From NCBI RefSeq assembly GCF_035918235.1, contig NZ_CP109485.1, positions 8,037,001-8,101,000 of the forward strand: DNA of 64,000 nucleotides, in the 5' to 3' direction. The position numbers and the translations under genes are program-made. This document shows positions 12,420 through 60,322 of this stretch, piece by piece. This DNA comes from Streptomyces sp. NBC_01445. Its GTDB lineage: Bacteria; Actinomycetota; Actinomycetes; Streptomycetales; Streptomycetaceae. Under the pieces are notes generated by a model. The model was given only the letters and a program-made list of their open reading frames with translations, searched no databases and had not been told where the DNA came from. Each line of letters starts with the position of its first letter. Positions within the stretch are counted from its first letter, which is position 1.

Positions 12420-12442
12420 TTGTCAGCGGTACCCGATAGCCT
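12420..12442 (+). promoter_or_regulatory. DNA-damage (RecA-NDp/PafBC-type) promoter of ruvCAB
   Basis: TTGTCAGCG, 8 nt, then TAGCCT (12437-12442) matches the published actinobacterial motif tTGTCRgtg-N8-TAnnnT used for LexA-independent DNA-damage induction. The -35/-10 spacing (11 nt) is far too short for an ordinary sigma-70 promoter but exact for this class. An 8-bp inverted repeat, CGATAGCC (12434-12441) and GGCTATCG (12452-12459), overlaps the -10 and precedes the ribosome-binding site AAGGAGG. Confidence 0.8.
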
Positions 12443-12472
12443 GCACAAACTGGCTATCGAAGGAGGGGCGGG

Positions 12473-13021
12473 GTGCGCGTACTCGGCGTGGACCCGGGGC
12501 TGACCCGGTGCGGTGTCGGCGTGGTCGAGGGGGTCGCGGGGCGGCCTCTGACGATGCGCGGTGTCGGCGTCGTACGGACCCCGGCCGACGCGGAGTTGGG
12601 CCACCGCCTCGTCGCCATCGAGCAGGGCATCGAGCAGTGGCTGGACGAGTACCGGCCCGAATTCGTCGCCGTGGAGCGGGTGTTCAGCCAGCACAACGTG
12701 CGGACGGTCATGGGCACGGCCCAGGCGAGCGCGGTCGCGATGCTCTGCGCCAGCCGCCGCGGCATCCCTGTGGCCCTCCACACGCCCAGCGAGGTCAAGG
12801 CCGCCGTGACGGGCAGCGGACGGGCCGACAAGGCTCAGGTGGGCGCCATGGTGACGCGCCTGCTGAGACTGGACGCTCCTCCCAAGCCCGCCGACGCGGC
12901 CGACGCTCTGGCTCTCGCCATCTGCCACATCTGGCGCGCCCCCGCGCAGAACAGACTCCAGCAGGCTGTCGCCCTGCACGCATCGAAATCAACCACAGCA
13001 CCGAAAGGCCGTATCGCATGA
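12473..13021 (+). CDS. ruvC: Holliday junction resolvase RuvC
   Basis: A 182-residue RNase-H-fold endonuclease that cuts Holliday junctions as a dimer with RuvAB. All four acidic active-site residues are present: D7 (GVDPGLT), E68 (AVERVF), D141 and D144 ([12 protein letters not shown]). GTG start with a strong AAGGAGG site. Its promoter carries the DNA-damage motif. The stop overlaps the ruvA ATG (ATGA). The short basic C-terminal tail (TTAPKGRIA) is not conserved in general. Confidence 0.98.
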
Positions 13022-13626
13022 TCGCCTTCGTCAGCGGCCCGGTGGCCGCGCTCGCCCCTGACACCGCGGTGGTCGAGGTCGGCGGCATCGGCATGGCCGT
13101 CCAGTGCACTCCGAACACGCTCTCCGGCCTCCGCATCGGCCAGCAGACCAAGCTCGCCACCTCCCTCGTCGTACGCGAGGACTCGCTCACGCTGTACGGC
13201 TTCGCCGACGACGACGAGCGGCAGACCTTCGAGCTGCTGCAGACCGCCAGCGGCGTCGGCCCGCGCCTCGCGCAGGCGATGCTCGCCGTGCACAGCCCCG
13301 ACGCGCTGCGCGGCGCTGTCGCCTCCGGTGACGAGAAGTCGCTCACCGCCGTGCCCGGCATCGGCAAGAAGGGCGCCCAGAAGCTGCTCATCGAACTCAA
13401 GGACCGGCTCGGTGCGCCCCTCGGCACCGGTACGGGCGTGGGCGCCCCCGTGACGTCAGGCTGGCGCGACCAGCTGCACGCCGCCCTCATCGGGCTCGGC
13501 TACGCCACGCGCGAGGCCGACGAGGCCATCGAGGCCGTCGCCCCGCAGGCCGAGGAGGAGGGCGGCACGCCGCAGGTCGGCAAGCTCCTCAAGGCCGCGC
13601 TCCAGACGCTGAACCGCACCCGCTGA
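13018..13626 (+). CDS. ruvA: Holliday junction branch-migration protein RuvA
   Basis: A 202-residue DNA-binding subunit that holds the four-way junction as a tetramer and loads RuvB. Domain I starts [12 protein letters not shown]; two helix-hairpin-helix motifs follow ([13 protein letters not shown] and [16 protein letters not shown]); the C-terminal RuvB-binding domain contains ALIGLGY and ends at LQTLNRTR. The ATG at 13018 overlaps the ruvC stop. Length is normal. Confidence 0.97.
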
Positions 13627-13678
13627 CCGGGCCGCGCCCGCTCCCCGCCCGAACCACCACCACCGCGAGGCACACCTC

Positions 13679-14752
13679 ATGAACTGGGACGACACGACCG
13701 ACGCGACGCCCGACACCGAGCGGCTCGTGGGCTCTGTCGCCGACGGCGAGGACCAGGCGGTCGAGGCCGCCCTGCGCCCCAAGGACCTGGGCGAGTTCAT
13801 CGGCCAGGAGAAGGTCCGCGAGCAGCTCGACCTGGTCCTCAGGGCGGCACGCGCGCGTGGCGCCACCGCCGACCACGTCCTGCTCTCCGGCGCGCCCGGC
13901 CTCGGCAAGACCACGCTCTCCATGATCATCGCGGCCGAGATGGGCGCCCCCATCCGGATCACCAGCGGCCCGGCCATCCAGCACGCCGGCGACCTGGCCG
14001 CGATCCTCTCCTCCCTCCAGGAGGGCGAGGTCCTCTTCCTCGACGAGATCCACCGCATGTCCCGCCCCGCCGAAGAGATGCTCTACATGGCGATGGAGGA
14101 CTACCGGGTCGACGTCATCGTCGGCAAGGGCCCCGGCGCCACGGCCATCCCGCTGGAGCTGCCCCCGTTCACCCTCGTCGGCGCCACCACGCGCGCGGGC
14201 CTCCTGCCCCCGCCGCTGCGCGACCGCTTCGGCTTCACGGCGCACATGGAGTTCTACGAGCCGGCCGAGCTGGAGCGCGTCATCCACCGCTCCGCGAACC
14301 TCCTCGACGTGGAGATCGACCCTCAGGGCGCCGCCGAGATCGCCGGCCGCTCCCGCGGCACCCCCCGTATCGCCAACCGCCTGCTGCGCCGGGTCCGCGA
14401 CTACGCGCAGGTCAAGGCCGACGGCCACATCACCCGTGACATCGCCGGGGTGGCCCTCGGCGTCTACGAGGTGGACGGCCGCGGCCTCGACCGGCTCGAC
14501 CGCGCCGTCCTCGAAGCGCTGATCAAGCTCTTCGGCGGCGGCCCCGTCGGACTCTCCACCCTCGCGGTCGCCGTGGGGGAGGAGCGCGAGACGGTCGAGG
14601 AGGTCGCGGAACCCTTCCTCGTACGAGAAGGTCTGCTCGCCCGTACGCCGCGAGGCCGGGTCGCCACGCCCGCGGCCTGGGCCCACCTCGGCCTCACGCC
14701 GCCCCAGCAGACAAGGGGAACAAGCGGACAAGGGGACCTGTTCGGGGCGTGA
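13679..14752 (+). CDS. ruvB: Holliday junction ATP-dependent DNA helicase RuvB
   Basis: A 357-residue AAA+ motor that drives branch migration as hexameric rings beside RuvA. Walker [10 protein letters not shown] (71-79), Walker B VLFLDEIH (118-125), sensor 1 GATTRAG, the arginine finger region DRFGF, and the C-terminal winged helix ([16 protein letters not shown]) are all in place. The N terminus has about 25 extra acidic residues before the core, usual in streptomycetes. It is the last gene of ruvCAB; the gap from ruvA is 52 nt. Confidence 0.98.
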
Positions 14753-14800
14753 TCGCGCAGGGTAGTCGCCAGGTCAGGAACCCCGGTGCCATGCTGAGCG

Positions 14801-14830
14801 TTGTTCCTTGAGTGCGGACTCGCTTAGACT
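14801..14830 (+). promoter_or_regulatory. Vegetative promoter of the yajC-secD-secF operon
   Basis: TTGTTC (14801-14806), 18-nt spacer, TAGACT (14825-14830): a good match to the streptomycete HrdB consensus. It lies 88 nt before the yajC GTG. Confidence 0.6.
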
Positions 14831-14917
14831 CCGCCGATGCCGCCCATGTGGACGGCGTGCCCACCCCCATCCAACTGGCCGCCTACGTGCGCGGTCGTGC
14901 GAAGGAATTTCCGTCCC

Positions 14918-15418
14918 GTGAATATCGTGACCCTCCTCCCGTTCATCGTGCTCATCGGGGCCATGTTCCTGATGACCCGCTCCGCCAAGAAGAAGCAGCA
15001 GGCGGCAGGCCAGATGCGGGACCAGATGCAGCCCGGTTCCGGCGTCCGCACGATCGGGGGCATGTACGCCACCGTCAAGGAGGTCCACGACGAGATGGTC
15101 CTTCTGGAGGTGGCCCCCGGCGTCCACGCCGTCTACGCGAAGAACTCGATCGGCGCCGTCCTGGCCGACGACGAGTACAACCGCATCGTCCACGGCACCG
15201 AGAGTGACGACAACGATGACCACGACGCCCTCGGCGCCGATGGTGCGGTCGTGCCGGACGACGCTTCCTCCCTCACCGAGACCGACGAGCCCGCCGACGC
15301 CTCGGACGACTCGCGCATCGACCTCGACAAGAAGGACGAGGCTGCTGCCACTGACGTAGCCTCCGAGGCCGACGGCGCTGAGCCGAAGAAGACCGACGGC
15401 GAGTCCGACGCGAAGTAG
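14918..15418 (+). CDS. yajC: Preprotein translocase subunit YajC
   Basis: A 166-residue accessory membrane subunit of the SecDF-YajC complex, which assists SecYEG-driven export. It has one N-terminal transmembrane helix (about 4-20, VTLLPFIVLIGAMFLMTR), the basic loop RSAKKKQQ, then the conserved YajC core (MQPGSGVRTIGGMYATV ... VAPGVHAVYAKNSIGAV). A long acidic Asp/Glu/Ala tail of roughly 70 residues follows, typical of actinobacteria. I chose the GTG at 14918 because GAAGGA precedes it; the longer in-frame ATG at 14837 would add non-conserved residues. It is first in the operon with secD and secF. Confidence 0.93.
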   Translation: MNIVTLLPFIVLIGAMFLMTRSAKKKQQAAGQMRDQMQPGSGVRTIGGMYATVKEVHDEMVLLEVAPGVHAVYAKNSIGAVLADDEYNRIVHGTESDDNDDHDALGADGAVVPDDASSLTETDEPADASDDSRIDLDKKDEAAATDVASEADGAEPKKTDGESDAK

Positions 15419-15557
15419 TCACGCCCCCAGGACCGCGCGCGCCCGCTCGCGCTCCGCGGTCCCGGACGTGTGATTTCCGCACGGATTCTCGACACCATTT
15501 CATGGCCGTCCGGGCACGTACCCCGCTGCGGGACGGATGGAGAGGGAGAACGAGAAG

Positions 15558-17339
15558 GTGGCAGCACCCAAGAAGGGCCGAAGTCACGGCGCCCAGAGCA
15601 GGCCGGGCCGCACACTGGCCTTCATCCTGATCGCGATGGTGGCGTTGACCGGCGGGATGTTCCTGTCCGGCCACACCACGCCGCGCCTGGGCATCGACCT
15701 CGCCGGTGGTACGAGCATCACGCTCAAGGCGAAGAGCGAGCCGGGTCAGAAGAACGCGGTCAACCAGACCAACATGAACACGGCCGTGAGCATCATCGAG
15801 CGCCGCGTCAACGGTCTGGGTGTCACGGAGTCCGAGGTCCAGACCCAGGGCTCCGACAACATCATCGTCAACATCCCCAAGGGGACGAACGAGGCGCAGG
15901 CGCGCGAGCAGGTCGGCACTACCGCCCAGCTCTACTTCCGCCCCGTGCTCACCGTGGCCGCCGGTGCGCCCACTCCCGAGCCCTCCGCCAGCCCTTCCGG
16001 CTCGGGCAAGGGCAAGGCCACCGACAAGGCGACCGACAAGGCCACGGACGGCGGCAAGGGCAAGGCGTCCAGCACGCCGACCGCCTCGCCGACCTCGTCC
16101 GCGACCTCGCAGGGCCGCGCCGTCACCGACGGTCTGAAGGCCGACTCCTCGCCGTCGCCGAGCGCCAGCGCCTCCGCGAGCGGCAAGCCCACCCCCTCGG
16201 CCAGCTCCACCCCGGACCCGGCCACCGCCGCACTGCAGAAGAAGTTCACGGACCTCAACTGCACCGACAAGGCCGCCCGCAGCCAGGTCGCGTCGGGCGT
16301 CAAGCCCGAGGACCCCGCCGTGGCGTGCGGTAAGAACTCGTCCGGCCAGTGGGAGAAGTACGTCCTCGGCCCCGCCGAGGTGAACGGCAAGGACGTCGAC
16401 AAGGCGCAGGCCACGATCAACCAGCAGACCGGCGCCTGGGTCGTCAACATGGACTTCACGGGCGGCGGCTCGAAGAAGTTCGCGAAGATCACCAGCAAGC
16501 TCTCGCAGCAGCAGCCGCCGATGAACCAGTTCGCCATCGTGCTCGACGGCGACGTGGTCTCGGCTCCCAGCGTCAGCTCGACCCTGAGCGGCAGCGCGGA
16601 GATCTCCGGCAGCTTCGACCAGCAGTCCGCCCAGGACCTCGCCAACGTGCTGTCCTACGGTGCCCTCCCGCTCTCCTTCCAGGAGCAGAGCGTCACGACG
16701 GTCACCGCGGCCCTCGGCGGCGAGCAGCTGCACGCCGGCCTGATCGCCGGCGCCATCGGCCTCCTGCTGGTCGTGATCTACCTGGTGGTCTACTACCGCG
16801 GCCTGTCGCTGATCGCGCTCGCCTCGCTCATGGTGTCCGCGATCCTCACCTACGTGATCATGACGCTCCTCGGCCCGGCCATCGGCTTCGCGCTGAACCT
16901 GCCGGCGGTCTGCGGCGCGATCGTGGCGATCGGCATCACGGCCGACTCGTTCATCGTGTTCTTCGAACGCATCAGGGACGAGATCCGTGAGGGTCGCTCG
17001 CTGCGGCCCTCCGTCGAGCGCGCCTGGCCGCGAGCCCGGCGCACGATCCTGGTCTCCGACTTCGTGTCGTTCCTCGCCGCCGCGGTGCTGTTCGTCGTCA
17101 CCGTCGGCAAGGTCCAGGGCTTCGCGTTCACGCTCGGCCTGACCACCGTGCTCGACGTGGTCGTCGTGTTCCTGTTCACCAAGCCGCTGATGACGATCCT
17201 GGCCCGCAAGAAGTTCTTCGCGAGCGGACACCCGTGGTCCGGGCTCGACCCGAAGCGCCTCGGCGCCAAGCCGCCACTGCGCCGCACGCGCCGTGCTCCC
17301 GGCTCTCCCGTAGGCCCTGTCGACACGAAGGAGGCGTGA
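15558..17339 (+). CDS. secD: Protein translocase subunit SecD
   Basis: A 593-residue RND-family membrane protein which, with SecF, uses the proton gradient to pull proteins out during Sec export. The N-terminal anchor (about 19-36) is followed by the D1 motif RLGIDLAGG (43-51), a large external domain, and five transmembrane segments at the C terminus. The external domain carries an inserted Ser/Thr/Pro/Ala/Lys-rich low-complexity stretch, residues 137-225 (see separate entry). The GTG at 15558 has GGGAG about 10 nt upstream and gives the usual MAAPKKGR start; an ATG seven codons earlier is also open. secF begins after one base. Confidence 0.94.
   Translation: MAAPKKGRSHGAQSRPGRTLAFILIAMVALTGGMFLSGHTTPRLGIDLAGGTSITLKAKSEPGQKNAVNQTNMNTAVSIIERRVNGLGVTESEVQTQGSDNIIVNIPKGTNEAQAREQVGTTAQLYFRPVLTVAAGAPTPEPSASPSGSGKGKATDKATDKATDGGKGKASSTPTASPTSSATSQGRAVTDGLKADSSPSPSASASASGKPTPSASSTPDPATAALQKKFTDLNCTDKAARSQVASGVKPEDPAVACGKNSSGQWEKYVLGPAEVNGKDVDKAQATINQQTGAWVVNMDFTGGGSKKFAKITSKLSQQQPPMNQFAIVLDGDVVSAPSVSSTLSGSAEISGSFDQQSAQDLANVLSYGALPLSFQEQSVTTVTAALGGEQLHAGLIAGAIGLLLVVIYLVVYYRGLSLIALASLMVSAILTYVIMTLLGPAIGFALNLPAVCGAIVAIGITADSFIVFFERIRDEIREGRSLRPSVERAWPRARRTILVSDFVSFLAAAVLFVVTVGKVQGFAFTLGLTTVLDVVVVFLFTKPLMTILARKKFFASGHPWSGLDPKRLGAKPPLRRTRRAPGSPVGPVDTKEA
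15966..16232 (+). repeat. Low-complexity insertion within SecD external domain
   Basis: Codes for SecD residues 137-225, composed almost only of Ser, Thr, Pro, Ala, Gly, Lys and Asp, with short tandem units (KATD three times; SASASASG). It separates two conserved parts of the first periplasmic-equivalent domain, so it should form an exposed flexible loop on the outer face of the membrane. Confidence 0.8.
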
Positions 17340-17340
17340 G

Positions 17341-18462
17341 ATGTCGAAGCTCGGCCATCTCGGCGCCCGGCTCATCCGCGGTGAAGTCGGCTACGACTTC
17401 ATCGGCAAGCGCAAGATCTGGTACGGCATCTCGATCCTGATCACCATCACGGCCATTGTCGGCCTGGCGGTGCGTGGTCTGAACATGGGCATCGAGTTCG
17501 AGGGAGGCGCGGTCTTCACCACCCCGAAGACCAGCGTCTCCGCGGGCACGGCGGAGCGGTCCGCCGAAGCGGCTTCCAGCCACGACGCGATCGTCCAGGA
17601 GCTCGGCACCGGCGGTCTGCGCATCCAGATCTCCGGCGTGGACACCGCGAAGTCCGACCAGATCAAGACCGCACTCTCGAAGGACCTCAACGTCCCCGAG
17701 GCGAAGATCAACGCCGACCTCGTCGGACCCAGCTGGGGCGAGACGATCGCCAACAAGGCATGGACCGGCCTGATCGTGTTCATGATCCTCGTGGTGATCT
17801 ATCTGGCCATCGCCTTCGAGTGGCGCATGGCGATCGCGGCCCTGGTAGCACTGATCCACGACCTCACGATCACGGTCGGGATCTACGCGCTGGTCGGCTT
17901 CGAGGTCACCACGGGCACCATCATCGGTCTGCTGACCATCCTCGGTTACTCGCTCTACGACACGGTGGTCGTCTTCGACTCCTTGAAGGAGGGCACGAAG
18001 GACATCACCAAGCAGACCCGCTTCACGTACAGCGAGGTCGCCAACCGCTCCATCAACGGCACGCTGGTGCGTTCGATCAACACCACGATCGTCGCGCTGC
18101 TGCCGGTGGCGGGCCTGCTGTTCATCGGCGGCGGCTTCCTCGGCGCGGGCATGCTCAACGACATCTCGCTGTCGCTGTTCGTCGGCCTCGCGGCCGGTGC
18201 GTACTCGTCGATCTTCATCGCCACTCCGCTCGTCGCCGACCTCAAGGAACGCGAACCGCAGATCAAGGCCCTGAAGAAGCGCGTGCTCGCCAAGCGCGCG
18301 TCGGCGGCCGCCAAGGGCGAGTCCGCCGAGGCCCCGGAGCCGCAGGACGACGACTACGACGACCCGTCGGACGACGAGGCCGCGACCGCGGTCGTCGGCC
18401 CGCGGCACCAGCCCGCGTCGCGCAACCGGGGCCGCGGGCGGCCCTCGGGGAAGCGTCGATGA
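17341..18462 (+). CDS. secF: Protein translocase subunit SecF
   Basis: A 373-residue partner of SecD. After an N-terminal helix it has the GIEFEGG motif, a short external domain, and five transmembrane segments with the conserved ALIHDLTITVGIYAL (proton-path Asp region) and GYSLYDTVVVFD motifs. The C-terminal tail (acidic, then Arg-rich) is cytoplasmic and not conserved. It starts one base after secD; its stop overlaps the apt ATG (ATGA), linking export and purine salvage genes in one transcript, as in other streptomycetes. Confidence 0.96.
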   Translation: MSKLGHLGARLIRGEVGYDFIGKRKIWYGISILITITAIVGLAVRGLNMGIEFEGGAVFTTPKTSVSAGTAERSAEAASSHDAIVQELGTGGLRIQISGVDTAKSDQIKTALSKDLNVPEAKINADLVGPSWGETIANKAWTGLIVFMILVVIYLAIAFEWRMAIAALVALIHDLTITVGIYALVGFEVTTGTIIGLLTILGYSLYDTVVVFDSLKEGTKDITKQTRFTYSEVANRSINGTLVRSINTTIVALLPVAGLLFIGGGFLGAGMLNDISLSLFVGLAAGAYSSIFIATPLVADLKEREPQIKALKKRVLAKRASAAAKGESAEAPEPQDDDYDDPSDDEAATAVVGPRHQPASRNRGRGRPSGKRR

Positions 18463-18998
18463 CCGACATCAAGGAGCTGCTGCTCAGCCGAATCCGCGAT
18501 GTGCCGGACTACCCGGAGCCGGGTGTGATGTTCAAGGACATCACCCCGCTCCTGGCGGACCCGTCGGCCTTCACGGCACTCACCGACGCCCTCGCGGAGC
18601 TCTGCGTCGCGAACGGCGCCACCAAGGTCGTCGGCCTGGAGGCGCGCGGGTTCATCCTGGGCGCCCCCGTCGCCGTCCGCGCCGGGCTCGGCTTCATCCC
18701 CGTACGCAAGGCCGGCAAGCTCCCCGGGGCGACGCTCAGCCAGTCGTACGACCTGGAGTACGGGTCGGCCGAGATCGAGGTGCACGCCGAGGACCTGGTC
18801 GCGGGTGACCGGGTCATGGTGATCGACGACGTCCTCGCCACCGGTGGTACGGCCGAGGCATCGCTGCGGCTCATCCGGCGCGCGGGCGCCGAGGTCGCCG
18901 GCATCGCCGTCCTGATGGAGCTGGGTTTCCTGAGCGGCCGCGAGCGGCTGCTCCCGGCCCTCGACGGCGCCCCGCTGAACTCACTGCTCATGGTCTGA
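18459..18998 (+). CDS. apt: Adenine phosphoribosyltransferase
   Basis: A 179-residue purine salvage enzyme: adenine + PRPP gives AMP + PPi. The PRPP-binding motif VMVIDDVLATGGTAEA is at residues 119-134, and the N-terminal FKDITPLLADP hood signature is present. The ATG overlaps the secF stop. In streptomycetes apt sits between secF and relA; here a strong terminator (19017-19052) separates it from relA. Confidence 0.97.
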   Translation: MTDIKELLLSRIRDVPDYPEPGVMFKDITPLLADPSAFTALTDALAELCVANGATKVVGLEARGFILGAPVAVRAGLGFIPVRKAGKLPGATLSQSYDLEYGSAEIEVHAEDLVAGDRVMVIDDVLATGGTAEASLRLIRRAGAEVAGIAVLMELGFLSGRERLLPALDGAPLNSLLMV

Positions 18999-19016
18999 AC
19001 ACCTGGTCACAGGCGT

Positions 19017-19052
19017 AAAGGCGGGCCCGGAGGAATCCGGTGCCCGCCTTTT
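19017..19052 (+). terminator. Rho-independent terminator after apt
   Basis: Arms AAAGGCGGGC (19017-19026) and GCCCGCCTTT (19042-19051), with inner CCGG/CCGG pairing, followed by T. This is the most classical intrinsic terminator in the window. Confidence 0.9.
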
Positions 19053-19167
19053 GCGTTTCCGCAGTTGAAAGCCGTCCCACCGGCCGAAGGCGAGGGAGCG
19101 GCCCAGTGTCGATACCATGGGCTCTCCGGGACCTGAACGGGGGACCCGTCGCGCACGAGGAGCGCCG

Positions 19168-21768
19168 TTGCCAGACGAGGCCAAGCCACTCTCCCCCAGC
19201 GCCGAGCGCGTGGGGGTACCCACAGCCGCCAAGCCCGACCAGAAGGCCGACCAGGCCGCGGCTGCCGCAGTCGTGCCCGCGAAGCCCGGGAAGACCGGGC
19301 AGAGCGCCGCCGGCACGCCGGGCGGCAAGGCGGCCGAGCAGCAGCCGCGCCCCAAGCCTCCCGCCGACAAGCGCCCGGCCCCCGGCCCCGAGGCCGCCGC
19401 CCCGGCCCCTGTCGCCCCTGCCGCGCCGCCCACCCCGCCCGTGGTGCGCCCCGCAGCGGGCCAGCCCGCCCGCTCCGGCTCCTCGAACCGCGTCCGCGCC
19501 CGCCTCGCCCGTCTCGGCGTCCAGCGCTCGAACCCGTACAACCCCGTTCTCGAGCCCCTGCTGCGGATAGTGCGCAGCAACGACCCGAAGATCGAGACGT
19601 CCACGCTGCGCCAGGTCGAGCGCGCCTACCAGGTCGCCGAGCGCTGGCACCGCGGTCAGAAGCGCAAGAGCGGCGACCCGTACATCACGCACCCGCTCGC
19701 GGTGACGACGATCCTCGCCGAGCTCGGCATGGACCCCGCGACGCTGATGGCGGGCCTGCTGCACGACACGGTCGAGGACACCGAGTACGGCCTGGACACC
19801 CTGCGCCGCGACTTCGGCGACCAGGTCGCCCTGCTCGTCGACGGCGTCACCAAGCTGGACAAGGTCAAGTTCGGCGAGGCCGCGCAGGCCGAGACCGTCC
19901 GCAAGATGGTCGTCGCGATGGCCAAGGACCCGCGCGTCCTGGTCATCAAGCTCGCCGACCGCCTGCACAACATGCGCACCATGCGGTACCTCAAGCGCGA
20001 GAAGCAGGAGAAGAAGGCCCGCGAGACGCTGGAGATCTACGCCCCGCTGGCGCACCGCCTGGGCATGAACACCATCAAGTGGGAGCTGGAGGACCTCGCC
20101 TTCGCGATCCTCTACCCCAAGATGTACGACGAGATCGTGCGTCTGGTGGCCGAGCGCGCGCCCAAGCGCGACGAGTACCTCGCCATAGTGACCGACGAGG
20201 TGCAGAGCGACCTGCGCGCCGCCCGCATCAAGGCGACCGTCACCGGCCGCCCGAAGCACTACTACAGCGTCTACCAGAAGATGATCGTCCGCGGCCGTGA
20301 CTTCGCGGAGATCTACGACCTGGTGGGCATTCGTGTCCTTGTCGACACGGTGAGGGACTGTTACGCCGCCCTCGGCACGGTGCACGCGCGATGGAACCCG
20401 GTCCCCGGCCGGTTCAAGGACTACATCGCGATGCCCAAGTTCAACATGTACCAGTCGCTGCACACGACGGTGATCGGCCCCAACGGCAAGCCCGTTGAGC
20501 TGCAGATCCGTACGTTCGACATGCACCGCCGCGCCGAGTACGGCATCGCGGCCCACTGGAAGTACAAGCAGGAGGCCGTCGCCGGTGCCTCCAAGGTGCG
20601 CTCCGACGCCCCGAAGAGCACGGGCAAGGACGACCACCTCAACGACATGGCGTGGCTGCGCCAGTTGCTCGACTGGCAGAAGGAGACGGAGGACCCGGGC
20701 GAGTTCCTGGAGTCCCTGCGCTTCGACCTGTCTCGCAACGAGGTCTTCGTCTTCACGCCGAAGGGCGACGTCATAGCGCTGCCGGCCGGTGCGACCCCGG
20801 TGGACTTCTCGTACGCGGTCCACACCGAGGTCGGCCACCGGACCATAGGAGCACGGGTCAACGGGCGGCTCGTTCCGCTCGAATCGACCCTGGACAACGG
20901 CGATTTGGTGGAGGTCTTCACCTCCAAGGCCGAAGGCGCGGGCCCGTCCCGCGACTGGCTCGGCTTCGTCAAGTCGCCCCGGGCGCGCAACAAGATCCGT
21001 GCCTGGTTCTCCAAGGAGCGCCGCGACGAGGCGATCGAGCAGGGCAAGGACGCCATCGTCCGCGCCATGCGCAAGCAGAACCTGCCGATCCAGCGGATCC
21101 TGACGGGCGACTCGCTGGTCACGCTCGCGCACGAGATGCGCTACCCCGACATCTCGTCCCTGTACGCGGCGATCGGCGAAGGCCACGTCACCGCGCAGAG
21201 CGTCGTCCAGAAGCTCGTCCAGGCCCTCGGCGGCGAGGAGGCCGCCAACGAGGACATCGCCGAGAGCGCGCCCCCGTCGCGCGGCCGCTCCAAGCGCCGG
21301 GCGAACGCCGACCCCGGCGTGGTCGTCAAGGGCGTCGAGGACGTGTGGGTCAAGCTGGCCCGCTGCTGCACGCCCGTCCCCGGCGACCCCATCATCGGCT
21401 TCGTCACGCGCGGCAGCGGCGTATCGGTGCACCGCAGCGACTGTGTGAACGTCGAGTCGCTGTCCCGTGAGCCCGAGCGGATCCTCGAGGTCGAGTGGGC
21501 GCCCACGCAGTCCTCGGTCTTCCTCGTCGCCATACAGGTGGAGGCCCTCGACCGCTCTCGGCTGCTCTCGGACGTCACCAGGGTCCTGTCCGACCAGCAC
21601 GTCAACATCCTGTCCGCGGCCGTGCAGACGTCCCGCGACCGGGTGGCCACCTCCCGCTTCACCTTCGAGATGGGCGACCCCAAGCACCTGGGCCACGTCC
21701 TGAAGGCGGTCAGGGGAGTGGAGGGCGTCTACGACGTCTACCGCGTGACGTCGGCGCGCAGACCGTAA
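19168..21768 (+). CDS. relA: Bifunctional (p)ppGpp synthetase/hydrolase (RelA/SpoT family)
   Basis: An 866-residue Rel enzyme that makes and degrades (p)ppGpp and so controls the stringent response and antibiotic onset. Domains in order: a disordered Pro/Ala/Lys-rich N terminus (1 to about 105); HD hydrolase with HDTVED (199-204); synthetase with [13 protein letters not shown] and RFKD (415-418), the RxKD signature of bifunctional Rel rather than ExDD of monofunctional RelA; TGS ([16 protein letters not shown]); a CC/zinc-finger region ([13 protein letters not shown]); and a C-terminal ACT domain. I chose the TTG at 19168 because GAGGAG precedes it by 5 nt and MPDEA is the usual streptomycete start. 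Codons 8-18 coincide with a dispersed palindromic repeat. Confidence 0.96.
19189..19221. repeat. Short dispersed palindromic repeat, copy B (inside relA N-terminal codons)
   Basis: Sequence pattern CTCTCCCCCAGC-GCC-GAGCGCGTGGGGGTACCC. It matches copy C (55924-55963, reverse complement) in the CTCCCCCA, GAGCGTGGG and nGGTnCCCC blocks. It falls in the disordered N-terminal part of relA, where an in-frame insertion would be tolerated. Confidence 0.5.
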
Positions 21769-21777
21769 CCGACAGAC

Positions 21778-21820
21778 ATGGGAAGGGCCCCCGGCGCTCA
21801 GCGCCGGGGGCCCTTCCCAT
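21778..21820. terminator. Strong bidirectional terminator between relA and the DUF349 gene
   Basis: A perfect 20-bp inverted repeat: left arm 21778-21797, TCA loop 21798-21800, right arm 21801-21820. The arms begin ATGGGAAGGG and end CCCTTCCCAT. It lies between convergent genes. Confidence 0.92.
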
Positions 21821-21834
21821 CATGCGATGACTGC

Positions 21835-23067: not shown

Positions 23068-23201
23068 AGCGCCTCCTCCACATGATGCCTGCGGGGCGCC
23101 TTGGGCCCCCGGGCATCGTCCACAGTTTCGTCACGGCCAACATAGGCGACCGGCGGGGCGGCTGTCCGCATCCCGCGCGACCGAAATTTCACCGCCGGCG
23201 G

Positions 23202-24014: not shown

Positions 24015-24230
24015 CGGGTCTACTCCTCGTACGTCGCGAGACCTGATTCCGAACCGATCCGAAGTGATTCGAACGGGACGAACCGGGTCTGAACTGGACC
24101 TGTTACGACCGCCTGCTGTGTGCCCCGTACCGTATATGGGTTAGCTGTGGAATCGGCAGCGCCGGTAGGCTCTGATCTGCCGCATTCTTCTGCGGACACA
24201 CTTCCGCCGGACGACATACGAAGGACGATC
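24015..24230. other. Divergent intergenic region, cyclophilin / metallo-hydrolase
   Basis: 216 nt with no gene. On the plus strand TAGGCT (24166-24171) could be a -10 for the hydrolase-hisS operon, with TTAGCT 19 nt upstream as a weak -35. A small hairpin CCGCA/TGCGG follows. Nothing else is recognisable. Confidence 0.3.
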
Positions 24231-24941: not shown

Positions 24942-24953
24942 CGAGAGACTTCC

Positions 24954-26216: not shown

Positions 26217-26236
26217 CCGGGCCTCAGGAGCAGGCG

Positions 26237-26268
26237 AAGGAGCGGGGCACGCGCGTGCCCCGCTCCTT
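26237..26268 (+). terminator. hisS terminator
   Basis: Arms AAGGAGCGGGGCAC (26237-26250) and GTGCCCCGCTCCTT (26255-26268) with GCGC between: a perfect palindrome followed by a short T-rich stretch. Confidence 0.88.
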
Positions 26269-27117: not shown

Positions 27118-27140
27118 TTGTCAGTGGGGTGACATAGGGT
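27118..27140 (+). promoter_or_regulatory. DNA-damage (RecA-NDp/PafBC-type) promoter of rarA
   Basis: TTGTCAGTG (27118-27126), exactly 8 nt, then TAGGGT (27135-27140): a perfect match to tTGTCRgtg-N8-TAnnnT. The GTG start at 27148 is 7 nt past the -10 with no ribosome-binding site, so the mRNA is probably leaderless. Confidence 0.85.
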
Positions 27141-27147: not shown

Positions 27148-28518
27148 GTGGAGCCCGACCTGTTCACCGCCGCAGCCGAAGACCGCCAGGAAAAGGACCC
27201 GTCCAGCAGCCCCCTGGCCGTCCGGATGCGCCCGCGCACCCTCGACGAAGTCGTCGGCCAGCAGCATCTGCTGAAGCCGGGCTCACCCCTGCGCCGCCTC
27301 GTGGGGGAGAGCGGCGGCGGCCCCGCCGGGCCTTCGTCGGTGATCCTCTGGGGCCCGCCCGGCATCGGCAAGACGACCCTCGCGTACGTCGTCTCCAAGG
27401 CGACGAACAAGCGCTTCGTGGAGCTCTCCGCGATCACCGCGGGCGTCAAGGAAGTGCGGGCCGTCATCGACGGCGCCCGCAGGGCGCTCGGCGGCCACGG
27501 CAAGGAGACCGTCCTCTTCCTCGACGAGATCCACCGCTTCAGCAAGGCCCAGCAGGACTCCCTCCTGCCGGCCGTCGAGAACCGCTGGGTCACGCTCATC
27601 GCGGCGACGACCGAGAACCCGTACTTCTCGATCATCTCGCCGCTCCTGTCCCGCTCCCTGCTCCTCACCCTCGAATCCCTCACGGACGACGACCTGCGCG
27701 CACTGCTCCGGCGGGCACTCACCGAGGAGCGCGGTCTCGGCGGCGCGGTCACGCTCCCCGATGAGGCCGAGGGTCACCTGCTGCGCATCGCGGGCGGCGA
27801 CGCGCGCCGGGCTCTCACCGCACTTGAGGCGGGCGCGGGTTCGGCCCTCGCCAAGCAGGAGAAGGAGATCACCCTCCAGACCCTGGAGGAGTCCGTCGAC
27901 CGCGCCGCGGTCAAGTACGACCGGGACGGCGACCAGCACTACGACGTCGCGAGCGCCCTGATCAAGTCCATCCGCGGCTCTGACGTGGACGCCGCCCTGC
28001 ACTATCTGGCCCGCATGATCGAGGCGGGTGAGGACCCCCGTTTCATCGCCCGCCGCCTGATGATCTCCGCGAGCGAGGACATCGGCCTCGCCGACCCGAC
28101 GGCGCTGCCCACGGCCGTCGCGGCAGCCCAGGCCGTCGCGATGATCGGCTTCCCCGAGGCGGCGCTCACCCTCAGCCACGCGACGATCGCTCTGGCCCTG
28201 GCGCCGAAGTCGAACTCCGCGACGACGGCGATCGGCGCCGCCATGGAAGACGTCCGCAAGGGCCTCGCGGGCCCCGTCCCGCCCCATCTGCGCGACGGCC
28301 ACTACAAGGGCGCGGCCAAGCTCGGCCACGCCCAGGGATACGTGTATCCGCACGACGTCCCCGGAGGCATCGCCGCCCAGCAGTACGCGCCGGACGCGGT
28401 CAAGGGAAAGCGCTACTACCAACCCACCCGGTACGGGGCGGAGGCCCGGTACGCGGACGTGGCCGAGCGCGTCCGTGAGCGCCTCACCGGCGAGCAGCCG
28501 GGCGCGGCGGGCAGCTGA
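27148..28518 (+). CDS. rarA: Replication-associated recombination protein A (AAA+ ATPase)
   Basis: A 456-residue RarA/MgsA/WHIP1-family clamp-loader-like ATPase acting at stalled replication forks. Walker [10 protein letters not shown], Walker [11 protein letters not shown], sensor 1 [10 protein letters not shown] and the C-terminal tetramerisation region ([24 protein letters not shown]) are present. Upstream is an exact DNA-damage promoter motif, which fits a repair role. The GTG start is supported by leaderless spacing from the -10. It stands alone between the VKOR gene and rpsD. Confidence 0.96.
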
Positions 28519-46238: not shown

Positions 46239-46239
46239 C

Positions 46240-47297: not shown

Positions 47298-47302
47298 GAA
47301 CC

Positions 47303-50346: not shown

Positions 50347-50354
<8 letters not shown>
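49212..50354 (+). CDS. carA: Carbamoyl phosphate synthetase, small (glutaminase) subunit
   Basis: A 380-residue class I amidotransferase that feeds ammonia to CarB. The N-terminal domain has the [18 protein letters not shown] motif; the nucleophile Cys is in [12 protein letters not shown] (the usual GICLGHQ varied), and His-Glu are in [11 protein letters not shown]. It overlaps the upstream gene by ATGA and carB by 8 bases, so the subunits are made in step. Confidence 0.97.
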
Positions 50355-53655
<3,301 letters not shown>

Positions 53656-53664
53656 CAGCCCACT

Positions 53665-53694
53665 GAGGGGGACATCGGAAACGGTGTCCCCCTC
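53665..53694 (+). terminator. Hairpin between carB and pyrD
   Basis: Arms GAGGGGGACA (53665-53674) and TGTCCCCCTC (53685-53694), 10-nt loop, between two genes of one operon. It may give partial termination or stabilise the upstream mRNA. Confidence 0.55.
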
Positions 53695-53712
53695 CGTGTG
53701 AGGACACCCACG

Positions 53713-54818
<1,106 letters not shown>

Positions 54819-54822
<4 letters not shown>

Positions 54823-55664
54823 CGGTTCTCGAACCCTTCGGCGCCCGCCTGCGCCGCGCCATGGACGAGCGCGGCCCCCTGTGCGTGGGCATCGACCCGC
54901 ACGCGGCGCTCCTGTCGGCCTGGGGCCTGAACGACGACATCGACGGCCTGGAGCGCTTCACGCGGACCTCGGTCGAGGCGCTCGCCGACACCGTCGCCGT
55001 CGTCAAGCCGCAGTCGGCGTTCTTCGAGCGCTTCGGCTCGCGCGGCGTCGCCGTCCTGGAGCGCGCCGTCGCGGACCTGCGCGCCGCCGGCACGCTGGTC
55101 GTCATGGACGCCAAGCGCGGCGACATCGGCTCCACCATGGCCGCGTACGCGGAGACCTTCCTGCACAAGGACTCCCCGCTCTTCTCGGACGCCCTCACCG
55201 TCTCGCCGTACCTCGGCTACGGGTCCCTGAAGCCGGCCGTCGACCTGGCCCGTGAGTCGGGCGCCGGGCTCTTCGTCCTCGCCCTGACCTCCAACCCGGA
55301 GGGCGGCGAGGTCCAGCACGCCGTACGCGCCGACGGGCGCAATGTGGGCGCGACGATGCTCGCCCACCTCTCCGAGGAGAACGCGGGCGAGACGCCCATG
55401 GGCTCCTTCGGCGCGGTCGTCGGCGCGACGCTCGGGGACCTGTCCTCGTACGACCTGGACATCAACGGTCCGCTCCTCGCCCCGGGCATCGGCGCCCAGG
55501 GCGCGACCCCGGCGGATCTGCCGGCCGTCTTCGGCGCGGCCGCGCGCAACGTCGTCCCGAACGTCAGCCGCGCCGTCCTGAAGGCGGGCCCCTCGGTCGC
55601 CGCCCTGCGTGATGCGTCGGTCCGCTTCGCCGACGAGGTCCGCGCGGCGGTCGCCGCCGGCTGA
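54819..55664 (+). CDS. pyrF: Orotidine 5'-phosphate decarboxylase (type 2)
   Basis: A 281-residue enzyme forming UMP from OMP. It is the long type 2 form found in actinobacteria; the catalytic Asp-Lys stretch is [11 protein letters not shown], with GIDPH near the start and the phosphate loop [19 protein letters not shown]. It is the last gene of the operon. The orotate phosphoribosyltransferase gene pyrE is not in this window. Confidence 0.96.
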
Positions 55665-55923
55665 CCCGATCGGGTAACGGAATCGCGGCTGTTCGAGGCG
55701 CTGAGAGGCGCCGCCGAGGTGCGAAAAGAGTCCTCGCGGGGGTCCGCGGGAGCCTCCTTGACCATTCCGTGATGTTTCAACGGGGCCTCGGGGAGGGGCT
55801 CGCACACGGATCCGGGCAGAAATCCGGGGCTATATGTCTGTAATGTCGGGCTCGACGGAGGCTGACCAGGACTTTTCGTCTGTTCTCGCTGACTCAGGCG
55901 GTCCTGGCCGCTAGTCTCCGTCG

Positions 55924-55963
55924 AGTGGGGGCACCTCCCACGCTCTCAAGGCAGTGGGGGAGA
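55924..55963. repeat. Short dispersed palindromic repeat, copy C (upstream of sIHF)
   Basis: AGTGGGGGCACCTCCCAC, CTCTCAAG, then GCAGTGGGGGAG. Contains CCCAC/GTGGG pairings. Its reverse complement aligns with copy B in relA and loosely with copy A. Confidence 0.5.
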
Positions 55964-55984
55964 AACGGGCGAGCGTATTGCTCG

Positions 55985-56020
55985 TTGCTCCCCAGGTGAG
56001 GGGCGACTAGGTTCCTCACC
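55985..56020 (+). promoter_or_regulatory. sIHF promoter with inverted repeat flanking the -10
   Basis: TTGCTC (55985-55990), 17-nt spacer, TAGGTT (56008-56013). GGTGAGG (55995-56001) and CCTCACC (56014-56020) form an inverted repeat embracing the -10. The half sites GGTGA and TCACC resemble those of BldD (AGTGA/TCACC) with a 16-nt gap. Confidence 0.5.
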
Positions 56021-56060
56021 GGTCCGTATCCGACAGTTCGACATCCGAGGTGACGTAGGC

Positions 56061-56384
56061 GTGGCTCTTCCGCCCCTTACCCCTGAACAGCGCGCAGCCG
56101 CGCTCGAAAAGGCCGCCGCGGCTCGCCGGGAGCGGGCCGAGGTCAAGAATCGACTCAAGCACTCCGGCGCCTCCTTGCACGAGGTCATCAAGCAGGGTCA
56201 GGAGAACGACGTCATCGGCAAGATGAAGGTCTCCGCCCTTCTCGAGTCTCTCCCCGGCGTGGGCAAGGTCCGTGCCAAGCAGATCATGGAGCGGCTCGGA
56301 ATTTCCGAGAGCCGCCGCGTGCGTGGACTCGGTTCCAACCAGATCGCGTCCCTGGAGCGCGAGTTCGGCAGCACCGGCGCCTAG
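56061..56384 (+). CDS. sihf: Streptomycete integration host factor (sIHF)
   Basis: A 107-residue basic nucleoid protein that binds and bends DNA without sequence specificity and stimulates topoisomerase; its loss affects sporulation and antibiotics in S. coelicolor. A long N-terminal helix ([29 protein letters not shown]) precedes a helix-two-turn-helix core ([21 protein letters not shown]). It is the counterpart of mycobacterial mIHF, also next to gmk. GTG start. A short hairpin follows it. Confidence 0.96.
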
Positions 56385-56391
56385 TCCTCCG

Positions 56392-56415
56392 TGCCCGGAC
56401 CGACTGGTCCGGGCA
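56392..56415 (+). terminator. sIHF terminator/attenuator
   Basis: Arms TGCCCGGACC (56392-56401) and GGTCCGGGCA (56406-56415) with a GACT loop, between sIHF and gmk. Confidence 0.7.
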
Positions 56416-56442
56416 TGCGGGGATAGCTGGAATAATCGCTGC

Positions 56443-57000
56443 ATGAGTGAACGTCCGCGGCTGACCGTGCTCTCCGGCCCCTCCGGGGTCGGCAAGAGCA
56501 CGGTCGTCGCTCATATGCGCAAGGAACACCCCGAGGTCTGGCTGTCGGTTTCGGCCACCACCCGCAAGCCGCGCCCCGGCGAGAAGCACGGTGTCCACTA
56601 CTTCTTCGTCACCGACGAGGAAATGGACAAGCTGATCGCCAACGGCGAGCTGCTGGAGTGGGCCGAGTTCGCGGGCAACCGGTACGGCACCCCGCGCCGG
56701 GCCGTCCTGGACCGTCTCGAGTCGGGCGAACCCGTCCTCCTCGAGATCGATCTCCAGGGCGCCAGACTCGTCCGCGAGTCGATGCCCGAGGCGCAGCTGG
56801 TCTTCCTCGCCCCGCCGAGCTGGGAGGAGCTGGTCCGCCGGCTCACCGGCCGGGGGACCGAGGCCCCCGAGGTGATCGAGCGCAGACTCGCGGCAGCCAA
56901 GGTCGAACTCGCAGCCGAAGCGGAGTTCGATACGACCCTGGTCAACACCTCCGTCGAAGACGTGGCCCGTGAGCTGCTAGCCTTGATGAGAGTTGTTTGA
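56443..57000 (+). CDS. gmk: Guanylate kinase
   Basis: A 185-residue enzyme converting GMP to GDP with ATP. P-loop GPSGVGKS (12-19), the GMP-binding [11 protein letters not shown] and the YGTPR motif are clear. The start is uncertain: ATG 56443 has only a weak ribosome-binding site; streptomycete homologues often carry a few more N-terminal residues. It heads a group with rpoZ and coaBC. Confidence 0.95.
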
Positions 57001-57091
57001 TCTTCGATCTATTTGTGATCTCGAATTCCGCCGGAGCAATCCCGCGTTTCCTTGATCACATGTGATCTTCAATCCCATCGGAAGGCAGAGA

Positions 57092-57364
57092 GTGTCCTCT
57101 TCCATTACCGCGCCCGAGGGCATCATCAACCCGCCGATTGATGAGCTGCTCGAGGCGACCGACTCGAAGTACAGCCTCGTGATCTACGCCGCCAAGCGCG
57201 CGCGTCAGATCAACGCGTACTACTCGCAGCTCGGTGAGGGCCTGCTCGAGTACGTCGGCCCGCTGGTGGACACCCACGTCCACGAGAAGCCGCTCTCGAT
57301 CGCGCTCCGCGAGATCAACGCGGGGCTGCTGACGTCCGAGGCCATCGAGGGTCCGGCTCAGTAA
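57092..57364 (+). CDS. rpoZ: RNA polymerase omega subunit
   Basis: A 90-residue subunit that helps assemble beta-prime; in Streptomyces it is needed for normal development. Sequence: [37 protein letters not shown] with the conserved [16 protein letters not shown] helix. The GTG at 57092 has GGAAGG 6 nt upstream and gives the usual 90-residue form. gmk-rpoZ order is conserved. Confidence 0.97.
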
Positions 57365-57382
57365 GCAATCAGTTTTTCTTGG

Positions 57383-57417
57383 CCACAGGCCCGGCAGCGC
57401 GACTGTCGGGCCTGTGG
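57383..57417 (+). terminator. Hairpin after rpoZ
   Basis: Arms CCACAGGCCCG (57383-57393) and CGGGCCTGTGG (57407-57417), 13-nt loop, between rpoZ and coaBC. A T-rich stretch lies before, not after, the stem. Confidence 0.65.
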
Positions 57418-57495
57418 TGTGTCATGGAGTCGTACGGGTCCGAGGGAGTCGTACGTTCCCGAGTACGGGAATCCGAGTGCGGGGAGGCACGGACG

Positions 57496-58746
57496 GTGGA
57501 CAAGCCCAAGGTCGTTCTGGGGGTCAGCGGCGGAATCGCCGCCTACAAGGCGTGCGAGCTCCTGCGCCGGCTGACCGAGTCCGGGCACGACGTACGCGTC
57601 GTGCCGACGGAGTCCGCCCTGCACTTCGTGGGGGAGGCGACCTGGTCGGCGCTGTCCGGCAACCCCGTCTCGACCGAGGTCTGGGAGTCCGTCCACGAGG
57701 TCCCGCACGTGCGCATCGGCCAGCACGCCGACCTGGTGATCGTCGCGCCCGCGACCGCCGACATGCTCGCCAAGGCCGCGCACGGCCTCGCCGACGACCT
57801 CCTCACGAACACACTCCTGACCGCCCGCTGTCCGGTCGTCTTCGCCCCCGCCATGCATACGGAGATGTGGGAGCATCCGGCGACGCGGGAGAACGTGGCC
57901 ACGCTCCGCCGCCGCGGCGCCCTCGTCATCGAGCCCGCTGTCGGCCGCCTCACCGGCGTCGACACCGGCAAGGGCCGCTTCCCCGACCCGGTGGAGATCT
58001 TCGAATTCGCCCGTCGGGTCCTCGCGCGCGGCGATCTGGCGACCACCCAGGACCTCGCCGGACGGCACGTCGTCATCAGTGCAGGCGGCACCCGCGAGCC
58101 CCTCGACCCGGTCCGCTTCCTCGGCAACCGCTCCTCGGGCAAGCAGGGCTACGCCCTCGCCCGCACGGCGGTCGCCCGCGGCGCCCGCGTCACCCTCCTC
58201 GCGGCGAACGCGACGCTGCCCGACCCGGCCGGCGTCGACGTCGTCCACATAGGGACGGCAGTAGAGCTGCGCGAGGCCGTCCTCGAGGCGGCGCCGGAGG
58301 CGGACGTGGTGGTCATGGCGGCAGCCGTGGCCGACTTCCGCCCCGAGACGTACGCCACAGGGAAGATCAAGAAGAAGGACGGGCAGGAGCCGGAGCCCAT
58401 CGTCCTGGTCCGTAACCCGGACATCCTCGCCGAGCTCTCGGCGGACCGGCCGCGCCCCGGGCAGATCGTCGTCGGCTTCGCCGCGGAGACGGACGACGTC
58501 CTCGCCAACGGCCGCAAGAAACTGGCCCGCAAGGGCTGTGACCTGCTCGTGGTCAACGAGGTGGGGGAGCGCAAGACCTTCGGCTCCGAGGAGAACGAGG
58601 CCGTTCTGCTCGGCGCGGACGGCAGCGAGACCCCGGTCCCGCACGGTCCGAAGGAAGTGCTCTCCGACACGATCTGGGACGCGGTCGCCCGGCTGCTGCC
58701 CATCGGCGACGAGCGGGCCGTGGAGCGGATCTACGACGGCGAGTGA
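57496..58746 (+). CDS. coaBC: Bifunctional phosphopantothenoylcysteine decarboxylase/phosphopantothenate-cysteine ligase
   Basis: A 416-residue coenzyme A biosynthesis enzyme. The N-terminal flavoprotein half (CoaC) has VLGVSGGIAAYKACELLRRL, the active-site His region VPHVRIGQHAD and the PAMHTEMW loop (PAMN in most homologues; here His replaces Asn). The C-terminal ligase half (CoaB) has AGGTREPLDPVRFLGNRSSGKQGYALA and the IKKKDG lysine motif. The GTG at 57496 has GGGGAGG 9 nt upstream and is preferred over earlier starts. Confidence 0.95.
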   Translation: MDKPKVVLGVSGGIAAYKACELLRRLTESGHDVRVVPTESALHFVGEATWSALSGNPVSTEVWESVHEVPHVRIGQHADLVIVAPATADMLAKAAHGLADDLLTNTLLTARCPVVFAPAMHTEMWEHPATRENVATLRRRGALVIEPAVGRLTGVDTGKGRFPDPVEIFEFARRVLARGDLATTQDLAGRHVVISAGGTREPLDPVRFLGNRSSGKQGYALARTAVARGARVTLLAANATLPDPAGVDVVHIGTAVELREAVLEAAPEADVVVMAAAVADFRPETYATGKIKKKDGQEPEPIVLVRNPDILAELSADRPRPGQIVVGFAAETDDVLANGRKKLARKGCDLLVVNEVGERKTFGSEENEAVLLGADGSETPVPHGPKEVLSDTIWDAVARLLPIGDERAVERIYDGE

Positions 58747-58791
58747 ATGCCGCTTTCGCTCCAGCGGAGGTCCCGAACCGCACGAAGCGCT

Positions 58792-58995
58792 TACAATTCG
58801 GACACGTTCGCCTCTTCCTAAGAGCGATCGTCGTACCGCAGAATGCAGTGCCGCTGGTCACAGCGCTCCCAAGTGGCGAGACGCGTGGTCCGACGGCCGA
58901 GAGTGACCGATAAACTGGTCACGGACGACGCCGGGCGCAGCCCCCGGCCGTCCGCAAATGATCAGCCAGCAGCCGCTGCAACCACAGGGAGCGTT
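58792..58995 (+). promoter_or_regulatory. metK leader with candidate -10 and alternative pairing elements
   Basis: A good -10, TACAAT (58792-58797), would give a leader near 195 nt. CTGGTCAC occurs twice (58854-58861 and 58915-58922) and GTGACC once between them (58903-58908), so the middle element can pair with either copy but not both. I see no T-run terminator or match to a SAM riboswitch core. Confidence 0.35.
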
Positions 58996-60204
58996 GTGTC
59001 CCGTCGCCTGTTCACCTCGGAGTCCGTGACCGAGGGTCACCCCGACAAGATCGCTGACCAGATCAGCGACACCATTCTTGACGCGCTTCTGCGGGAGGAC
59101 CCGACCTCCCGGGTCGCCGTGGAGACGCTCATCACCACGGGCCTCGTGCACGTCGCCGGTGAGGTCACGACCAAGGCGTACGCGCCGATCGCGCAGCTCG
59201 TGCGCGACAAGATCCTCGAGATCGGCTACGACTCCTCGAAGAAGGGCTTCGACGGCGCCTCCTGCGGCGTGTCGGTGTCCATCGGCTCGCAGTCCCCCGA
59301 CATCGCCCAGGGCGTCGACACGGCGTACGAGTCGCGTGTCGAGGGTGACGAGGACGAGCTCGACAAGCAGGGCGCGGGCGACCAGGGCCTGATGTTCGGC
59401 TACGCGTGCGACGAGACGCCCGAGCTGATGCCGCTCCCGATCCACCTCGCGCACCGCCTCTCGCGGCGCCTGTCCGAGGTTCGCAAGAACGGGACGATCC
59501 CGTACCTGCGCCCCGACGGCAAGACCCAGGTCACCATCGAGTACGACGGCGACAAGGCGGTCCGCCTCGACACGGTCGTGGTCTCCTCCCAGCACGCGTC
59601 GGACATCGACCTCGAGTCGCTGCTCGCCCCCGACATCCGCGAGTTCGTCGTGGAGCACGTCCTGAGCCAGCTCATCGAGGACGGCATCAAGCTGGACACC
59701 GAGGGCTACCGCCTTCTGGTGAACCCGACCGGCCGCTTCGAGATCGGCGGCCCGATGGGCGACGCCGGCCTCACCGGCCGCAAGATCATCATTGACACGT
59801 ACGGCGGAATGGCCCGCCACGGCGGCGGCGCCTTCTCCGGCAAGGACCCGTCGAAGGTCGACCGCTCCGCCGCGTACGCGATGCGCTGGGTCGCCAAGAA
59901 CGTCGTCGCGGCCGGACTCGCCTCGCGCTGCGAGGTCCAGGTCGCGTACGCGATCGGCAAGGCCGAGCCCGTCGGCCTGTTCGTCGAGACCTTCGGCACG
60001 GCGACGGTGGACACGGACAGGATCGAGCAGGCGATCACCGAGGTCTTCGACCTCCGCCCCGCCGCGATCATCCGCGACCTCGACCTGCTGCGCCCGATCT
60101 ACGCGCAGACCGCCGCGTACGGCCACTTCGGCCGCGAGCTTCCCGACTTCACGTGGGAGCGCACGGACCGCGTGGACGCGCTGCGCAAGGCCGCGGGCCT
60201 CTAA
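58996..60204 (+). CDS. metK: S-adenosylmethionine synthetase
   Basis: A 402-residue enzyme making SAM from methionine and ATP; extra SAM stimulates antibiotic production in streptomycetes. Three-domain fold with [18 protein letters not shown], the [15 protein letters not shown] motif (ATP site), the P-loop-like [19 protein letters not shown] and the DLRP end. GTG at 58996 with AGGGAG upstream gives the 402-residue form usual in Streptomyces. Confidence 0.98.
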
Positions 60205-60238
60205 GCGGGACCCCGCGGCGGACGACGCCTGTACGTGA

Positions 60239-60269
60239 ACGGCCCCGGACCGGTTCGGTCCGGGGCCGT
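60239..60269 (+). terminator. metK terminator
   Basis: Arms ACGGCCCCGGACC (60239-60251) and GGTCCGGGGCCGT (60257-60269) with a GGTTC loop: a perfect 13-bp stem. Confidence 0.85.
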
Positions 60270-60299
60270 CGCGCGTCCTCGCCCCCGTCGCGGCGGCCG

Positions 60300-60322
60300 G
60301 TGTCAGTGCGGTCTGGTAGGAA
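60300..60322 (+). promoter_or_regulatory. Near-match DNA-damage (RecA-NDp/PafBC-type) promoter of priA
   Basis: GTGTCAGTG (60300-60308), 8 nt, TAGGAA (60317-60322). It differs from tTGTCRgtg-N8-TAnnnT in the first base and the last -10 base, but keeps the core and exact spacing. The GTG start is 7 nt past the -10 box, the same leaderless geometry as rarA. Confidence 0.55.

Follow-up and report, generated by a model that had tools for sequence, protein, structure and literature searches.

In the 64,000-nucleotide stretch of the Streptomyces sp. NBC_01445 genome analyzed here (contig NZ_CP109485.1, positions 8,037,001 to 8,101,000; hereafter the window), ruvC, rarA, and a priA-like gene are preceded by sites that we read, with a probability of about 0.85, as promoters of a known kind, the RecA-NDp (PafBC) type. 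The pattern scored as exact in the window and in the genome was TTGTCRGNG-N8-TANNNT. The ruvC site, TTGTCAGCG-N8-TAGCCT (12420..12442, + strand; –26 element 12420-12428, –10 element 12437-12442), ends 30 nt upstream of the GTG start of ruvC at 12473, and the rarA site, TTGTCAGTG-N8-TAGGGT (27118..27140, + strand; –26 element 27118-27126, –10 element 27135-27140), ends 7 nt upstream of the GTG start of rarA at 27148. Both had been proposed in an earlier sequence-only reading of this DNA and both were confirmed: they are the two exact matches in the window, and 100 shuffles yielded none. The priA-like gene has a variant site, GTGTCAGTG-N8-TAGGAA(T) (60300..60322, + strand; –26 element 60300-60308, –10 element 60317-60322), which carries two mismatches to the pattern and lies 7 nt upstream of the GTG at 60330. 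The same reading had listed it as a near match, and the site is indeed present, but the window by itself lends it no support: five matches with up to two mismatches were found there against a shuffle mean of 2.51, and 12 of 100 shuffles reached five. Because matches of this quality are at chance level in the window, the priA site needs support from beyond it.

A genome-wide search, which the sequence-only reading had suggested, returned 44 exact sites in the 11.47-Mb genome (two contigs) compared to 2 for a reversed-pattern control; with one mismatch allowed, the numbers were 190 and 51. With 2 exact sites in 64 kb, the window, which was chosen without regard to motif density, exceeds the genome-wide density roughly eightfold. 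The 44 sites represent 42 distinct sequences, one site being present in three copies. A coding-like open reading frame (ORF) starts within 105 nt downstream of 39 of the 42 distinct sites, whereas the same holds for 14 of 42 when the search runs backward and for 37% of random places (n = 1140). In a stricter form, TTGTCRGTG-N8-TANNNT, the motif was found in all 150 genomes of the genus that were searched, NBC_01445 included, with 3739 sites against 14 for the control (the sum of the per-genome control table) and 5 to 44 sites per genome (median 23). The motif combined with the start of rarA was recovered in 127 of the 150 genomes and never with the control. Among the 23 genomes without this combined pattern, one (G272) has no full-length rarA match, three (G023, G259, and G262) carry sites that have diverged (L086, L074, and L084, respectively), and one (G247) has the exact motif with a different –10.

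Conservation at orthologous promoters was examined in a sample of 31 genomes of the genus, which returned 30 ruvC, 30 rarA, and 29 priA loci. Loci with the gene start at a contig edge were excluded (L124 for priA and, from the class-level set, L148 for rarA and L171 for ruvC); L125, which covers a later part of the gene, was retained among the 28 priA loci counted. At ruvC, 24 of 30 sites are exact, five have one mismatch, and one has two, so that 29 of 30 lie within one mismatch. At rarA, 26 of 30 do so (14 exact, 12 with one mismatch), the others having two mismatches (two loci) or four (two loci). None of the 28 priA sites is exact; nine have one mismatch, 15 two, one three, two four, and one six, and 24 of 28 are thus within two. 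The reversed control at the same promoters always showed at least three mismatches, and by this measure four priA and two rarA loci do not surpass the control. Elsewhere on 723 kb of flanking strands of these loci there was no other site within one mismatch, and 47 sites had two. The priA orthologues keep the –26 element together with a variant –10, TAGGAA(T) or TAAGAA(T). In alignments made on the motif, which favors the motif columns, the –26 element, spacer, –10, and upstream columns carry 1.75, 1.39, 1.81, and 0.53 bits at ruvC, 1.70, 0.93, 1.80, and 0.50 bits at rarA (leaving out L084 and L086, the two loci with four mismatches), and 1.47, 1.09, 1.0, and 0.44 bits at priA. Unlike the window alone, therefore, the alignment of orthologues supports the priA site.

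These comparisons bear directly on the possibility that the sites are chance matches in a GC-rich genome. The priA site taken alone is not significant, and about two of the genome-wide sites would be expected by chance from the control. Against this stand the excess of 44 over 2, the conservation among orthologues, the presence of the motif in 150 of 150 genomes, and the rarA pattern in 127 of them, and we regard chance as a very improbable explanation of the whole; for ruvC and rarA, orthologue conservation excludes it. The sequence-only reading had also considered chance unlikely, a view with which the reversed control and the orthologues agree, although its own argument, the 11-nt gap between the two elements, is not in itself a test.

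The downstream ORF of each exact site was picked mechanically, and 37 of these ORFs were scanned against Pfam at a cut-off of 1e-5; L004 and two duplicates were left out, the two ORFs of L033 were scanned as parts of L128, and ruvC and rarA were scanned separately. The repair products found include RecA, UvrB, an O6-methylguanine methyltransferase (ogt), a member of the uracil-DNA glycosylase superfamily, and the large subunit of exonuclease VII (xseA). Replication, nucleotide, and ribosomal functions are represented by the DNA polymerase III gamma/tau subunit (dnaX), ThyX, and ribosomal protein S6, whose gene is presumably followed by ssb. Three helicases (a DEAD-box helicase fragment, a RecD2-like helicase, and a DSHCT helicase), two YjbR proteins, PhoH, and TerD were also matched, and one further product was taken for RadA. 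The motif thus stands before some 40 genes, and ruvC, rarA, and priA are only a few among them. The idea that these three form one special coordinated set was accordingly given up, as they are few beside the 42 distinct exact sites and their variants. Their closeness was likewise rejected as a sign of coordination, since orthologue coordinates show that this gene order is common to the genus.

Two further observations were made among the exact sites. The site present in three copies lies at both ends of contig 1 (L001 and L038) and on contig 2 (G000:C2:133200), upstream, where scanned, of a NOV_C-domain protein. Another site precedes a HATPase (GHKL)-domain protein (L006:1626-3023), whose ORF runs off the locus.

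Assignment of the motif to PafBC is based on several lines of evidence. First, the mycobacterial PafBC site has been given as TGTCGG or TGTCAG-10N-TA-3N-T (PMC8151990), and the ruvC and rarA sites match the spacing of this consensus, TGTCRG-10N-TA-3N-T, exactly. Second, the genome encodes PafB and PafC adjacently (L128, 6111-7175 and 7191-8147, by Pfam). Some kilobases further on, the gene for the DSHCT helicase carries an exact motif of its own. In the Protein Data Bank, PafB and PafC match best the PafBC initiation complexes of mycobacteria, 7p5x and 9fnd (E-values of 4.2e-54 for PafB and 7.7e-51 for PafC). Third, as read by eye from alignments against the residues named in PMC11804915, all eight residues that contact single-stranded DNA (ssDNA) are kept (R181, Y196, R204, R208, R211, and R214 of PafB; R201 and R204 of PafC). 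Together with the enrichment of the motif in genome and genus and the repair genes downstream, these results support the RecA-NDp/PafBC identity that the sequence-only reading had assigned.

Work on the mycobacterial proteins has indicated that ssDNA activates PafBC, that PafB reads the –26 element, and that PafC meets domain 4 of the sigma factor (PMC11804915). By analogy, PafB would recognize TTGTCRGTG as the –26 element and the housekeeping sigma factor would recognize TANNNT as the –10, with no –35 element used. Upon DNA damage, ssDNA would bind the WYL domains of PafBC, and the activated protein would be placed between promoter DNA and domain 4 of the sigma factor, allowing the housekeeping polymerase to start there. 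A genus-wide damage regulon would then be defined by this promoter, which in NBC_01445 precedes about 40 genes (including recA, uvrB, ogt, dnaX, ruvC, and rarA, with the variant at priA); rarA and priA are likely new members of it. The motif, its position, its enrichment and conservation, and a PafBC pair with its ssDNA-contact residues are observed here; binding and activation by PafBC, as well as damage induction of these genes, are suggested by the mycobacterial work. At rarA and priA, the GTG lies 7 nt after the –10, and the orthologous genes start at a distance of about 7 nt as well, which fits a transcription start about 7 nt past that element and suggests leaderless transcripts for both genes, probably so for rarA.

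Several results weigh against the PafBC assignment or narrow its reach. Half of the distinct sites (21 of 42) lie at least partly within a coding-like frame, compared to 78% of random places. Six of the 37 scanned ORFs have no Pfam match at the cut-off, and other downstream genes, such as those for a P450, ABC transporters, hydrolases, and sigma factors, have no evident link to DNA damage; part of the gene list may therefore be due to chance or be of unclear role. Beyond the genus the motif fades quickly. In a survey of 246 genomes of the phylum, eight members of the genus had 13 to 44 sites (control 0 to 2), six genomes of family f3 had 9 to 16 (control 0 to 2), and a single further genome (G062) had 8 (control 0), whereas the remaining genomes had 0 to 6 sites with controls of 0 to 7, mostly at chance level. 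Orthologues outside the genus (25 loci per gene, from 60 genomes searched) had a promoter within one mismatch in 1 of 25 cases for ruvC and 0 of 25 for rarA. The ruvC and rarA promoters in this form thus appear to be a trait of the genus. The domain PF19187 (HTH_PafC) is far more widely distributed than the motif, with matches in 190 of the 246 genomes (158 over the cut-off); of 14 control genomes, 5 also match it, E. coli being one of them. The exact motif is therefore not a simple companion of PF19187. In addition, an article of 2022 reports that a motif search in S. venezuelae did not show the RecA-NDp motif to be conserved there (PMC9380542), a remark that is hard to reconcile with the genus-wide count.

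Some of these points could be taken to mean that the motif belongs to another activator or sigma factor, unrelated to PafBC, whose spacing merely coincides. The link to PafBC at these promoters is drawn from sequence, and within the phylum the distribution of PafC-like domains does not coincide with that of the exact motif. However, the spacing and bases of the –26 and –10 elements are those of the mycobacterial PafBC site (PMC8151990), recA and uvrB lie downstream, and PafBC is present with its ligand residues. We consider a different activator unlikely and retain PafBC as the preferred reading.

A question of a different kind is whether these promoters also answer to LexA. The sequence-only reading had called them LexA-independent. 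In S. venezuelae, ruvC-ruvA is a target of LexA in chromatin immunoprecipitation sequencing, with a validated site, and is induced 2.8-fold by mitomycin C (PMC9380542). The label is a supposition, and for ruvC a doubtful one. An arrangement that we find somewhat more probable than not is dual control, in which PafBC activates the regulon while LexA also represses some of its genes, so that ruvC, like recA, responds to both and rarA and priA to PafBC alone. This arrangement refines the PafBC explanation and does not exclude PafBC. Consistent with it, both signals are present at recA of NBC_01445, where an SOS box with the same sequence as the S. venezuelae one lies 121 bp upstream of the motif. 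At ruvC, a weak SOS-like stretch and possible LexA site (12445..12460, no strand assigned), matching 8 of 12 positions of the SOS consensus, follows the –10 and overlaps the start region of ruvC; among 30 orthologues, 17 have a stretch scoring 8-9 of 12 at this position. By score, this stretch is not above chance, because random 150-bp stretches reach at least 8 in about 46% of cases and at least 9 in about 12%. For rarA and priA, no positionally shared SOS box was found: scores of at least 8 occurred, at varying positions, in 3 of 28 rarA loci (L084 and L086 left out) and 6 of 22 priA loci (L099-L123, without L115, L117, and L121). In M. tuberculosis, the RuvA, RuvB, and RuvC proteins are missing in a recA mutant, and RuvC is also missing under pafBC knock-down (PMC8151990), which is consistent with two inputs; on the other side, the title of a cited paper gives RecA-independent induction of M. 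tuberculosis ruvC despite its SOS box. As a separate observation, the S. venezuelae alkB "SOS box" GGTTACGCTGGATC (PMC9380542, Table 1) has little SOS likeness and holds TACGCT, a possible PafBC-type –10. A scan of genome contigs for this box joined to the motif matched two unrelated genomes, one of Microbacterium and one a Krumholzibacteriia MAG, and a scan for the S. venezuelae ruvC box with the gene start matched none; neither outcome bears on S. venezuelae itself.

Compared to the RecA-NDp/PafBC regulon of M. smegmatis and M. tuberculosis, the system described here has the same –26 and –10 elements and spacing and likewise encodes PafB and PafC. Mycobacterial PafBC targets include recA, uvr, and ruvC genes (PMC8223512). 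The two differ in that TTGTCAG is commoner here than TTGTCGG (32 of the 42 distinct sites) and that rarA, priA, and dnaX are not named among the mycobacterial targets in the portions of those articles that were available; in addition, the Streptomyces system is known from sequence and its induction is presumed. A few searches of the open-licence literature turned up no article in which rarA or priA is given as a PafBC target. Within Streptomyces, the recA promoter is reportedly of the RecA-NDp type, according to a study of S. rimosus recA. The same promoter type precedes SCO6735, which is induced 5-fold by ultraviolet light (PMC5087735). Those studies dealt with single genes, whereas the present count is genome-wide and genus-wide. 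The LexA/SOS regulon of S. venezuelae overlaps with the present set at recA and ruvC (PMC9380542) but relies on a repressor with a palindromic box, of which rarA and priA have no positionally shared copy. Thus, earlier work had already described this kind of promoter, the regulator behind it, and ruvC among its targets (PMC8223512 and PMC8151990), and what is new is the genus-wide count, the likely membership of rarA and priA, and the tension with the S. venezuelae remark.

Gene assignments in the window agree in part with the sequence-only reading. Pfam matches identified ruvC (12473..13021, + strand, GTG start; PF02075), ruvB (13679..14752, + strand; RuvB_N and RuvB_C), and rarA of the MgsA family (27148..28518, + strand; MgsA_C and AAA). 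The product of the priA-like gene (60330..62480, + strand, GTG start) matched PriA_3primeBD only. Because no helicase domain was matched in the Pfam scan, a role of this product in fork restart is uncertain.

The motif was also encountered in repeated genes. Two near-identical, IS605-like copies of TnpB in NBC_01445 (L002 and L005; contig 1, 366543 and 1832260) have the exact motif about 20 nt upstream. Among 18 other TnpB relatives, several of them partial or only about 30% alike, two (L231 and L232, both in G257) have it about 22 nt upstream and 16 show at least three mismatches. The motif was therefore rejected as a general feature of the TnpB element, as a single branch, represented in two species, retains it. 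In class-mates of family f3 (L189, L190, L191, and L193), exact motifs stand 6-7 nt before multi-copy genes, which may resemble the 13E12 repeat family of mycobacteria.

Taken jointly, these results invite a tentative picture, to which we would give slightly less than even odds: PafBC may govern the main DNA-damage response in Streptomyces, with LexA overlaid on few genes; the response may extend past repair to the replication machinery (dnaX, the rpsF operon, rarA, priA, and thyX), with leaderless transcripts as part of the means, and the promoter may have been acquired by some mobile TnpB genes. If true, this would reverse the published view of the motif as non-conserved in Streptomyces. A RecA/LexA-independent damage response in the genus was left open in 2022 (PMC9380542), and with the promoters counted throughout the genus and their genes named, such a response becomes testable. 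It also bears on how makers of DNA-damaging antibiotics divide damage control between two systems.

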